From Brasilonema angustatum HA4187-MV1 (GTDB lineage Bacteria > Cyanobacteriota > Cyanobacteriia > Cyanobacteriales > Nostocaceae), in contig JAHHGV010000043.1 of assembly GCA_019359695.1 (NCBI GenBank), positions 1-64,000 on the forward strand: a stretch of 64,000 nucleotides of DNA. Reading direction: 5' to 3'. Below the pieces are notes generated by a model. The model saw nothing but the letters and a program-made list of their open reading frames with translations. It searched no databases and was not told where the DNA came from. The position numbers were made by a program, and so were the translations under genes. The first letter of the stretch is position 1; every line of letters starts with the position of its first letter. Shown here piece after piece: positions 10,349-13,776 of the stretch.

Positions 10349-10473
10349 TGAGGATGAGAATTCGTATCAAATTCAGTAAAAAAACCGAGGTACTGAAAAG
10401 CTAACGTTTTCTCACTAAAACAAATCTACTGATTGATGGCAAGTTTCTAGAAACTTATCAAACCAAAATAATT

Positions 10474-10510
10474 AAATCAGTGAATAGCTACCATAGCTAT
10501 TCACTGATTT
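10474..10510. terminator. Perfect 16-bp inverted repeat, possible terminator
   Basis: AAATCAGTGAATAGCT (10474-10489), loop ACCAT, then AGCTATTCACTGATTT (10495-10510). The perfect hairpin has A and T tracts at its base and could stop transcription in either direction. It may serve the gene ending at 10348. Confidence 0.5.
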
Positions 10511-10635
10511 CAAATACCGTCCAAGATTGTCTAACTTATTAATAGACTTCGTGGCAGAAGTCGGGGAAAAGGTTAAGAAAGAAGGGGTAAGGGAAAATAA
10601 AAACCCTTTAACCTTTAACATGCACCCCTTTACCC

Positions 10636-10668
10636 AACTCGTGGCAATTGTCACGATTGCCACGAGTT
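10636..10668. repeat. Perfect 13-bp inverted repeat
   Basis: AACTCGTGGCAAT (10636-10648), 7-base loop, ATTGCCACGAGTT (10656-10668). No T-run follows. A related word, AGACTTCGTGGCAG (10544-10557), occurs inverted at 11396-11409 beside the end of purH, so this region is assembled from repeat fragments. Confidence 0.55.
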
Positions 10669-10808
10669 CTAATGAACGGCATAGTAAAGCATATTTTAAA
10701 TTTTGAATTGCTTAGCACTGCCCTACGGAGCTTAAAGATGCAGAAGAAGCTCACCCGTAGCAACTTGTAAAAATGAGAGCTTGATCACACCTACACAATA
10801 AAAAAGAT

Positions 10809-10880
10809 AACAAAAAGCACTCAGGAGTGTTACCGTGTTTCCATCCTAAATGCTTTTTGTTTACACTTGCTCCTCACACA
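10809..10880 (-). ncRNA. Candidate small RNA, copy A of a tandem pair
   Basis: Read on the minus strand, this has the leader GTGTGAGGAGCAAGTG and then an 11-bp stem (AACAAAAAGCA, 10809-10819, with TGCTTTTTGTT, 10851-10861) enclosing the shared loop word AAACACGG, ending in a U-rich stretch. The same order recurs 162 bases away in copy B. Between copies only the leader, the stem, the loop word and an upstream AAGTGTCAC (about 50 bases before the leader) are kept, as expected for a functional unit. Minus strand was preferred because all conserved words then sit upstream of, or within, a terminated transcript. No promoter is certain. Confidence 0.4.
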
Positions 10881-10964
10881 CACTCCTAGAAAATAACATT
10901 GACTTTGTCAAAGAGCAAGTAACCTAGGTGACACTTTGAAAACTGAACCTTCTGTGTTGAATTT

Positions 10965-11042
10965 AGCAAAGCAAAAAGCGCCTGAACGTCTGGCCGTGTT
11001 TCGACTTCAAGCGCTTTTTGTTTTCAACTTACTCCTCACACC
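10965..11042 (-). ncRNA. Candidate small RNA, copy B of a tandem pair
   Basis: On the minus strand the leader is GTGTGAGGAGTAAG (from 11041 down). A strong stem follows, with arms at 10972-10981 and 11011-11020 (CAAAAAGCGC/GCGCTTTTTG). It extends inward by TGAA/TTCA and GTC/GAC pairs, with AAACACGG in the loop. Downstream is CTTTTTGCTTTG. The 11-base leader word is the exact complement of ACTCCTCACAC, the core motif of the cyanobacterial sRNA Yfr1. AAGTGTCAC occurs about 45 bases upstream, as in copy A. Whether it is an RNA or only a repeat is not proven. Confidence 0.4.
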
Positions 11043-11406
11043 ATATAAACAATATCACAGGTTAAATGAGATCACAATTCTAAAGGGTGACACTTGTGCA
11101 ACTGCTCTACTGTCTTAAGACATAGAGTCGGGATTTTTTTCTATGTCTTATGAGTTACTTACAATTTGACATCCCTCTTAGGACATAAATGTGTAAAAAG
11201 AAAGACATAGAGGCATCAAGGAAGAAGCTAAGGAGCGGGGAGAAGGGAGTAGGGAGATAAAGAAAAAGTAGGGAGTAATCCTCTCCCATGCACCCCGCCC
11301 CCTGTGCTCCTGGTGCTCCTTCGCTGTAGAGCTTCTTCAATAGACAAGATTGCAAAAGTGGATTTTACGAGGTTCTGTTAAGCGTTCCCAACAACTGCCA
11401 CGAAGT

Positions 11407-12951
11407 CTAATGTAGAAAGTGACGGATACCCGTGAACACCATGACTAAACCCAGTTCATTAGCCGCGAGTATGGAATCTTGATCCCGCATACTTCCCCCT
11501 GGTTGGACAATCGCCTTAATTCCGGCTGCGGCTGCTGTTTTGACTGAATCATCAAAAGGGAAGAATCCATCGCTGGCGAGAATTGCTCCTTTGGCTTTTT
11601 CCCCAGCTTGTTCTAAGGCAATTTTAACTGAGCCAACACGGTTCATTTGACCTGCACCCACACCCAAAGTCGTGCGATCGCCACTCACAAGAATCGCATT
11701 AGACTTAACGTGTTTGCAAATTTTCCAAGCAAACAGCAATTCTTCTAACTCATCATCAGTCGGTTTCTTTTCGGTGACGATTTGCCATGTACTAGTATTT
11801 GCAACCGCATCATCTGAGGCTTGCAGCAGAAAACCGCCTGCAATGACTTTTACGCTTTCTTTGGGTCCACTCTTCAAGTCTGGTAAAATTAAGACTCGCA
11901 CTTTTGATTTAGCAGCCAGAATCTCTTGTGCTTCGGCATCACAACTTGGTGCAACCACGCATTCTAAAAACGTTTTTGTTAACTCAGTAGCAGTTCCAGC
12001 ATCAATCGGACGGTTTAGTGCAACAATTCCACCAAAAGCAGAAACAGAGTCAGCGTTAAATGCTTTTTGGTAAGCTTCTTGAATGGTATGTCCCAAGGCG
12101 ACACCACAGGGATTCGTATGTTTGATAATTGTTGCTGCTGGCGTATCGGTGAATTCAGAAATAATCCGCCGTGCGGCTTCTAAATCAACCAAGTTATTGT
12201 AACTGAGTTCTTTGCCTTGAAGTTTAGTAGCAGCTGCCCATCCAGTTGAAGTTGTACCAGTTTCATACCAAGCTGCACTTTGATGAGGATTTTCGCCGTA
12301 ACGGAGAGATTGTAATTGTTTGCCCGCAAGGGTGTACTGTTGAGGTGATTCCGCCTCTTTGCTAAGATTCTGACTCAGGTATGTGGCGATCGCCTGATCA
12401 TAGCTAGACGTATGCAAAAATCCCTTTAAGGCACACTTTTGACGAAACTCTGGGGATGGTTCGCCATTTGAGGTGCGCATTTCCTGTAAATATTCTTCAT
12501 ACTGCGCCGGGTCGCATAAAATTGTCAGATGAGCAAAGTTTTTTGATGCTGCCCTGAGCATAGCAGGACCACCGATATCAATTTGCTCGATCGCCTCAGG
12601 TAAAGTTACACCTTGTTTGGCAATAGTTTCTTCAAAAGGATAAAGATTCACCACAACCAAATCAATCGGGCGAATTTGGTTATGTTCCAAATCTGCTATG
12701 TCTTCGGGTACATCTCGCCGTGCTAAAATCCCGCCATGTATCCGAGGATGTAGAGTTTTAACTCGACCACCTAGAATTTCTGGAGAACTTGTGTAATCAG
12801 CAACTTTTGTGACTGGTAGCCCTGCATCTTTCAGTGCTTTGGCTGTTCCTCCACTGCTGATGAATTCAAAGTCAAATTCTTCTACTAAGCTACGAGCAAG
12901 GTCAATTAATCCTGTTTTGTTAGATACACTCAGCAGTGCTAGACGCGCCAT
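11407..12951 (-). CDS. purH: Bifunctional AICAR transformylase / IMP cyclohydrolase
   Basis: This enzyme does the last two steps of IMP synthesis: it formylates AICAR with 10-formyl-THF, then closes the ring. The N-terminal cyclohydrolase half begins ARLALLSVSNKTGLIDLARS and contains LGGRVKTLHPRIHGGILARR. The transformylase half has LRYGENPHQSAAWY, IIKHTNPCGVA and SAFGGIVALN, and ends with VQPGGSMRDQDSI and VFTGIRHFLH. I chose the ATG at 12949-12951, preceded by CCCAGGAAAT, over an upstream start that would add 26 unrelated residues. The resulting 514 residues is the usual length. A single gene on this strand. Confidence 0.97.
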   Translation of the reverse strand: MARLALLSVSNKTGLIDLARSLVEEFDFEFISSGGTAKALKDAGLPVTKVADYTSSPEILGGRVKTLHPRIHGGILARRDVPEDIADLEHNQIRPIDLVVVNLYPFEETIAKQGVTLPEAIEQIDIGGPAMLRAASKNFAHLTILCDPAQYEEYLQEMRTSNGEPSPEFRQKCALKGFLHTSSYDQAIATYLSQNLSKEAESPQQYTLAGKQLQSLRYGENPHQSAAWYETGTTSTGWAAATKLQGKELSYNNLVDLEAARRIISEFTDTPAATIIKHTNPCGVALGHTIQEAYQKAFNADSVSAFGGIVALNRPIDAGTATELTKTFLECVVAPSCDAEAQEILAAKSKVRVLILPDLKSGPKESVKVIAGGFLLQASDDAVANTSTWQIVTEKKPTDDELEELLFAWKICKHVKSNAILVSGDRTTLGVGAGQMNRVGSVKIALEQAGEKAKGAILASDGFFPFDDSVKTAAAAGIKAIVQPGGSMRDQDSILAANELGLVMVFTGIRHFLH

Positions 12952-13222: not shown

Positions 13223-13447
13223 ATGGATTACCAAGACATCATTACAATTGAGCCTGGAAAGCGTAGTGGCAAGCCGTGTATTCGGCGAATGCGAATCACC
13301 GTGTACGACATCTTGGAATATCTGGCAGGTGGGATGACCGAAGCAGAAATTTTGGAAGATTTTTCTGAACTCACCTTAGAAGATATCAAAGCTTGTCTTG
13401 CTTTTGCAGCTGATCGTGAGAGAAAGTTGTTTGTGGCATCCCTGTGA
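13223..13447 (+). CDS. DUF433 antitoxin
   Basis: The 74-residue protein has the DUF433 pattern: IITIEPGKRSGKPCIRRMRITVYDILEYLAGGMTEAEILEDF (read as several blocks) followed by LTLEDIKACLAFAADRE. These helix-turn-helix proteins are the antitoxin partners of DUF5615 PIN-like RNases. The stop codon overlaps the GTG start of the toxin (GTGA), so translation is coupled. Confidence 0.88.
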   Translation: MDYQDIITIEPGKRSGKPCIRRMRITVYDILEYLAGGMTEAEILEDFSELTLEDIKACLAFAADRERKLFVASL

Positions 13448-13776
13448 AACTGCTATTGGATGAAAACCTATCAGACCGAATCATTGACAGGATTGTCGAT
13501 TTGTATCCTAATTCTGAGCATGTCAAAACTTTAGGACTGACAAATACTGATGATACAGTTATCTGGGAACATGCAAAGGCGAATGATTTTGTGATTGTTT
13601 CCAAAGATTCCGACTTCCATCAGCGCAGTTTGCTTTATGGTCATCCACCCAAGTTTATTTATCTTCGTATTGGTAACAGTCCAACATCGAAGATTATTCA
13701 AATATTGAGAGATAATTTTGATACGATCACTCAATTCAAAAGTAGCGAAACGGAAAGTATTTTGGTGTTGATGTAG
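13444..13776 (+). CDS. DUF5615 PIN-like toxin
   Basis: The 110-residue protein starts at GTG, overlapping the antitoxin stop by 4 bases. It begins MKLLLDENLSDRI, with the conserved acidic DEN. It also has GLTNTDDTVIWEHAKANDFVIVSKDSDFHQRS, with the acidic cluster typical of PIN-like nucleases, and YLRIGNSPTS. It is a putative RNase toxin of the VapC-like type and appears intact. Confidence 0.87.
   Translation: MKLLLDENLSDRIIDRIVDLYPNSEHVKTLGLTNTDDTVIWEHAKANDFVIVSKDSDFHQRSLLYGHPPKFIYLRIGNSPTSKIIQILRDNFDTITQFKSSETESILVLM

Follow-up and report, generated by a model that had tools for sequence, protein, structure and literature searches.

Tandem small RNA genes are known from heterocystous cyanobacteria, the NsiR1 array of Nostoc being one case, and the locus described here is likened to that array by arrangement alone, the RNA being a different one. 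Much closer is Yfr2, a family tied to the Cyano-1 motif in a 2021 paper (PMC8400943) and characterized by an unpaired 5' end, a loop and a long bulged stem (PMC2662882). In pull-downs, Yfr2 of Prochlorococcus MED4 captures Yfr1, and a target repressed by Yfr1 is expressed again in an E. coli reporter when Yfr2 is supplied alongside (PMC6778093); the core of Yfr1 is conserved (PMC4734099). For Nostoc PCC 7120, mention is made of a Yfr1-Yfr2 gel shift and of four Yfr2 repeats, along with Yfr2 levels that go up when nitrogen is withdrawn (PMC6974561). A GntR protein common to all cyanobacteria, PMM1637, binds yfr2 promoters with the CGRE1 motif (PMC6778093).

The locus studied here lies in a 64,000-nt stretch of the Brasilonema angustatum HA4187-MV1 genome (the window). 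It shares with Yfr2 and Cyano-1 the leader, loop, helix, T-run end, complementarity to Yfr1 and presence in multiple copies per genome. It differs in that the copies stand in tandem at a conserved site after purH, whereas yfr2 loci are called unconserved in the available text of PMC6778093, so that the local synteny adds something small.

Tandem units and the Yfr2 family

On the minus strand, between 10809 and 11107, one layout occurs twice: a AAGTGTCAC box, a promoter-sized spacer, a GTGTGAGGAG leader, a hairpin whose loop holds AAACACGG in both units, and a T-run (Table 1). The first-pass annotation, made from the sequence alone, had described this order together with a 162-base offset and a distance of 45-50 bases from box to leader, and the mapped coordinates agree, with leaders 162 bases apart and spacers of 45 and 48 bases. 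The units do lie within the extent it gave (10809-11094), although the upper box reaches one base further, to 11095. The 11-base complement to the Yfr1 core that it noticed is exact at 11031-11041 (ACTCCTCACAC) and holds at 10 of 11 positions in the lower copy. The Yfr1 motif it saw on the plus strand is present in letters, but is simply the opposite strand of the leader.

Table 1. Features of the array and its upstream neighbour (positions in the window)
Feature	Position	Strand	Remarks
purH (AICARFT/IMPCHase), conserved upstream neighbour	11407..12951	-	Pfam PF01808 and PF02142
Upper unit, parts	box 11095-11087; leader 11041-11032; loop 11001-10994; stem arms 11024-11006 and 10986-10968	-	
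Inverted-repeat box GAGCAGTTGCACAAGTGTCAC, upstream copy	11087..11107	-	1 mismatch to GTNCASTTNNNNAASTGTCAC, exact CASTTNNNNAASTGTCAC; place conserved in relatives; candidate dimeric-regulator operator
Putative -10 TGATAT, upstream copy	11052..11057	-	by eye; stretch recurs in relatives' promoters
Yfr2 (Cyano-1), upstream copy	10970..11045	-	leader GTGTGAGGAGT 11041-11031, 3' hairpin and T-run; RF01701 44 bits, E = 2.7e-4; fold -24.7 kcal/mol
Lower unit, parts	box 10936-10928; leader 10879-10870; loop 10840-10833; stem arms 10861-10844 and 10826-10809	-	
Inverted-repeat box GTTCAGTTTTCAAAGTGTCAC, downstream copy	10928..10948	-	exact pattern match, conserved in relatives
Putative -10 TGTTAT, downstream copy	10893..10898	-	by eye
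Yfr2 (Cyano-1), downstream copy	10809..10883	-	leader GTGTGAGGAGC 10879-10869, 3' hairpin and T-run; RF01701 49.1 bits, E = 1.8e-5; fold -23.6 kcal/mol

Several inverted repeats surround the array: 10474-10510, with arms of 17 bases (100%); 10636-10668, with arms of 16 bases (94%); and a distant pair, 10543-10565 with 11387-11409 (23 bases, 87%). Further away, at 13223-13776 on the plus strand, two small overlapping ORFs read by eye as an antitoxin and a PIN-like toxin.

In a scan of the window with Rfam models, both copies exceeded the curated cut-off of RF01701 (41 bits), and relatives share the layout, so the pattern is not a matter of chance. An alignment of 36 Yfr2 sequences was examined, comprising both window copies, a third copy from the same genome (on contig C62) and 33 from 22 named loci, with near-identical sequences (>93% alike) dropped. 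Neither the leader GTGTGAGGA nor the loop GAAACACGG varies among them. A 17-pair helix is paired in 98.0% of cells and shows two-sided changes in 11 pairs, compared to 4.7 in shuffles (0 of 500 shuffles as high); pairing falls to 41-65% when the partners are slid as a control. The unpaired conserved 5' end, the 12-nt loop and the long bulged stem are all present in the window copies and the alignment. A covariance search in relatives, which the first-pass annotation had proposed as a check, found Yfr2 widespread, with the layout kept and the helix covarying. By model match and structure, both units belong to Yfr2 (RF01701), a known small RNA of cyanobacteria, and form a tandem gene pair.

Both -10 elements were picked out by eye; a mechanical scan of 10750-11200 called neither a sigma-70 consensus promoter nor a consensus terminator, the terminator search allowing loops of 3-8 bases, compared to 12 in Yfr2. 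A Yfr2 transcript is listed for Nodularia spumigena CCY9414 at 460195-460090 on the minus strand (PMC3610870), and it coincides with a Yfr2 match at 460121-460196 of that genome (G103). Its 5' end lies 3 bases before GTGTGAGG, and each transcript of the array probably starts at about the same place. For Brasilonema itself we infer transcription, this start site and the binding of Yfr1.

Inverted-repeat box and its candidate regulator

The first-pass annotation had treated the AAGTGTCAC box as part of a repeated unit. The layout does recur, but the box falls outside the RNA family match; it forms one side of an inverted repeat, GTRCASTT-N4-AASTGTCAC, which lies upstream of the promoter. Among 100 Yfr2 upstream regions, TGTCAC is found in 56 (0.67 in shuffles), starting 49-54 bases before GTGTGAGG, and a loose inverted pair in 54 (0.02 in shuffles; raw counts, kinship ignored), leaving 46 copies without it. 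Of the first copies in a locus, 29 of 48 have the pair, and of the later ones 23 of 49; counted by locus, it is present at least once in 31 of 48 and missing from every copy in 17. The exact long pattern occurs at 31 places in 22 of 59 relatives' genomes, and its reversed control once. Thirty of these places were read. A Yfr2-type leader follows 43-48 bases behind 25 of them; of the other 5, one precedes the second RNA described below. The 31st adjoins a Yfr2 match by its coordinates. Genome counts of the box are taken from exact matches, since the long pattern with up to 3 mismatches was uninformative (212 places, 275 for the reversed pattern). One exact box followed by Yfr2-promoter-like sequence, at C77:49143-49163 (+) (L127), has no Yfr2 leader behind it and is perhaps a decayed copy or a promoter reused by another RNA.

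The third Yfr2 copy of the genome (C62:211269-211336, plus strand; L003) scores 36.7 bits, below the cut-off of 41, and stands alone. It was grouped with 12 separate, mostly low-scoring copies from relatives, which resemble it at all 12 places read. The box half-site is absent from all 13 of these solitary promoters, and TTGAC is present in all 13; the array and the solitary gene therefore appear to be controlled differently. This split of yfr2 genes into a boxed array and a boxless solitary copy was not met in the available text of the literature examined.

In the Nodularia genome the box spans -64 to -43 relative to the listed start, where a regulator acting from upstream could plausibly sit. 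Binding sites of GntR proteins are frequently palindromic, with a GT and an AC that in the related YtrA group lie well away from the middle (PMC4494728), a form that the box fits. A related element is found near the same yfr2-promoter position in picocyanobacteria: the core G.CASTT is present in 17 of 29 promoters there (0.58 in shuffles, maximum 4; one of 30 loci, L238, was left out, its leader being unrecognizable), and 16 of the 17 start at -65 to -61, within about 3 bases of the place of the Nostocales left half. A full half-site (TGACAST or ASTGTCA) is found in 12 of 30 of these promoters (0.75 in shuffles), often in an arrangement other than that of Nostocales.

Three GntR-domain proteins are encoded in the genome. 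One of them, of 328 residues (contig C74), carries PF00392 at residues 16-77, with no other Pfam family and no NCBIfam model over its cut-off. Counterparts with 46-49% identity over its length are present in all four picocyanobacterial genomes examined, and a single genome from its own order has one at 52%; beyond the class two genomes were tried, with no match in the first and weaker matches in the second. From its length, GntR domain and conservation, and by way of the papers and not of a family model, the protein may be named PlmA-type. The PlmA subfamily is confined to cyanobacteria and interacts with PII-PipX (PMC5083789); in Synechococcus elongatus its gene is reported to be essential. 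We hypothesize that the box, about 43-65 bases upstream of the start, would be the site of a dimeric regulator, most likely this protein.

CGRE1 and PMM1637 offer the nearest precedent, with an element upstream of yfr2, a CASTT core near -62 and a GntR homologue present; the two elements are likened by place and regulator. The Nostocales box is, however, a wider inverted repeat with outward-facing half-sites, and it also stands before a second RNA, whereas CGRE1 is described as absent elsewhere in MED4 (available text of PMC6778093). That the box serves some regulator other than PlmA is a possibility which we take seriously, if with some doubt: PlmA is a putative binder of it and the genome encodes two further GntR proteins, while a PlmA-type homologue is present and a related core lies within about 3 bases of the same place in the lineage in which such a protein is reported on yfr2 promoters.

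A second structured RNA behind the box

The shorter box pattern CASTTNNNNAASTGTCAC occurs in 136 of 140 genomes of the family, compared to 27 of 140 for the reversed control. Thirty of its loci were listed: 11 lie before a Yfr2-type leader, 13 before a conserved TGCAAGGAGTGATACC and 6 before neither. The 13 point to a second RNA of about 160 nt. In Brasilonema its box is at C63:142145-142165 and the RNA runs from C63:142210 (match 142210-142331) on the plus strand, near genes for a sigma factor and a glutaredoxin-like protein (L268, L284). A covariance model built from 14 sequences matched this RNA in 54 of the 59 genomes searched within the family; beyond it, 2 of 40 gave weak matches. The box precedes the RNA at 49 of 57 places, all of them among the 54 in the family and none among the 3 outside, or at 42 of 50 when the genomes that defined the RNA are set aside.

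At the 5' end, TGCAAGGAGT is invariant in 54 aligned sequences. The counts that follow on 53 rows leave out four of the 57 places, namely the three outside the family and L309. Where the 3' end is expected, 50 of 53 have GC and then a T-run. In an alignment fitted to the structure, 91.7% of cells pair and 12 pairs show two-sided changes (5.4 in shuffles); free prediction keeps part of the fold, 15 pairs with one double change, and the exact structure is thus uncertain. Six loci scanned gave no Rfam match above the cut-offs, and two weak matches (24.2 bits with a cut-off of 56, and 17.2 with 40) were set down to chance. A small-protein reading was rejected as a general rule, since among 14 sequences several run into a stop within 15 codons of ATGTTTG and in two the start reads CTG.

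The predicted fold leaves most of the 5' end unpaired. This end reads AGGAGTG in 52 of 53 sequences, complementary to CACTCCT of Yfr1, and its duplex with the Yfr1 core is predicted at -13.6 kcal/mol (shuffle mean -8.2; 13 of 500 shuffles as low). It might pair with Yfr1, which is suggestive only, since AAGGAG also resembles a ribosome site. The RNA and its box were not met in the available text of the literature searched by name, and the RNA may well be among the listed start sites of PCC 7120. We tentatively propose that the box marks a dedicated two-RNA PlmA regulon in Nostocales, in which the Yfr2 array would be joined by this apparently undescribed RNA, with TGCAAGGAGT possibly pairing to the Yfr1 core; any role of the second RNA is presumed.

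Predicted Yfr1 pairing, gene neighbourhood and the probable role of the array

The first-pass annotation had suggested locating Yfr1 elsewhere in the genome. It is found once above the cut-off, at C75:144602-144665 (RF01116, 63.1 bits), between ORFs that read by eye as guaB and trxA, the synteny given in PMC6778093. The bare Yfr1 11-mer occurs at 8 places in the genome, compared to 4 for the reversed pattern, which is weak alone and was not used as evidence. A weak Yfr1 match (14.9 bits) at C90:85119-85178 on the plus strand (L007/L014) has an exact ACTCCTCACAC core at C90:85132 and is possibly a Yfr10-like RNA.

Joint folds of Yfr1 with each of the three Yfr2 copies are predicted at -76.8, -74.7 and -72.7 kcal/mol, compared to -52.0, -50.9 and -52.1 kcal/mol for the RNAs folded separately, a gain of 20.6 to 24.8 kcal/mol. 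In all three the leader pairs with the core and both hairpins stay intact; 13 and 14 leader-core pairs are predicted for the two window copies. The single-stranded Yfr2 leader would thereby pair with the single-stranded Yfr1 core and keep Yfr1 off its mRNA targets. One of the ideas in the first-pass annotation was a pair of small RNAs that bind Yfr1. Since the units are Yfr2 genes, for which a sponge role is published (PMC6778093, PMC6974561), this idea is supported, although the RNAs are known and the reading is already in print; what the annotation had overlooked was the family, and it had merged the promoter box with the RNA.

Yfr2 could instead act mainly on mRNAs through the loop GAAACACGG, its binding to Yfr1 being a side activity that inactivates Yfr2 itself. 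The loop is as invariant as the leader, and the available text of PMC6778093 reports pull-down targets of Yfr2 and a block of its RNase E cleavage by Yfr1 pairing. We nevertheless consider this rather unlikely, given that the leader is complementary to the conserved Yfr1 core and that in E. coli the target of Yfr1 recovers when Yfr2 is co-expressed.

Within the window's family 144 of 145 genomes gave a Yfr2 match (the exception is G082), as did 55 of 61 in a family taken to be picocyanobacteria. Among 117 genomes drawn from the phylum, 44 had a match at E up to 1e-4; the 20 listed misses at this threshold are 15 of the same phylum, three of the same order and two of the same class, and there were 53 further misses. 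Loci of purH were obtained by protein similarity, and the best 80 of 565 were used. With four of these set aside for having less than 600 bases downstream (one Nostocales-type, three others), the Yfr2 signature follows purH in 46 of 49 Nostocales-type loci and in 1 of 27 others, as grouped by name; two or more copies are present in 32 of the 49. Successive copies are spaced 134-171 bases apart in 42 of 49 cases.

The array shares the strand of purH and lies near its end, so it might be read as the 3' untranslated region of purH, or as the leader of a downstream gene, under control of Yfr1 in cis. This is very improbable: each copy has its own conserved promoter-like region and a hairpin with T-run, a relative has a listed transcript that begins at the leader (PMC3610870), and the nearest minus-strand frame of at least 60 residues below the array, a 63-residue one at 10472-10663, bears no sign of a gene. 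The Yfr1-regulated leader and the plain repeat, both named in the first-pass annotation, fit poorly for these reasons, as well as for the small copy number and the compensatory changes in the helix. A neutral or mobile palindromic intergenic repeat resembling an RNA by accident, to which the tandem pair and the nearby inverted repeats might point, is scarcely credible, because the genome holds not many scattered copies but only three matches at E up to 10, the leader is invariant, the helix covaries, and the place after purH is kept.

Overall, the locus is very probably an array of tandem Yfr2 genes, each with its own promoter region and terminator-like hairpin, which would sponge Yfr1 and carry a putative box for a dimeric regulator. 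Output of the array may follow nitrogen or light status, with the solitary, boxless Yfr2 as a basal supply; this basal role, like the direction of a PlmA effect, is presumed. With the RNAs already known, the question first raised is answered; what still attracts interest is the conserved promoter box, together with its likely link to PlmA and the second RNA that shares it. If the two-RNA regulon is real, nitrogen/carbon status would, via PII, PipX and PlmA, set the level of free Yfr1 through two co-controlled sponges.
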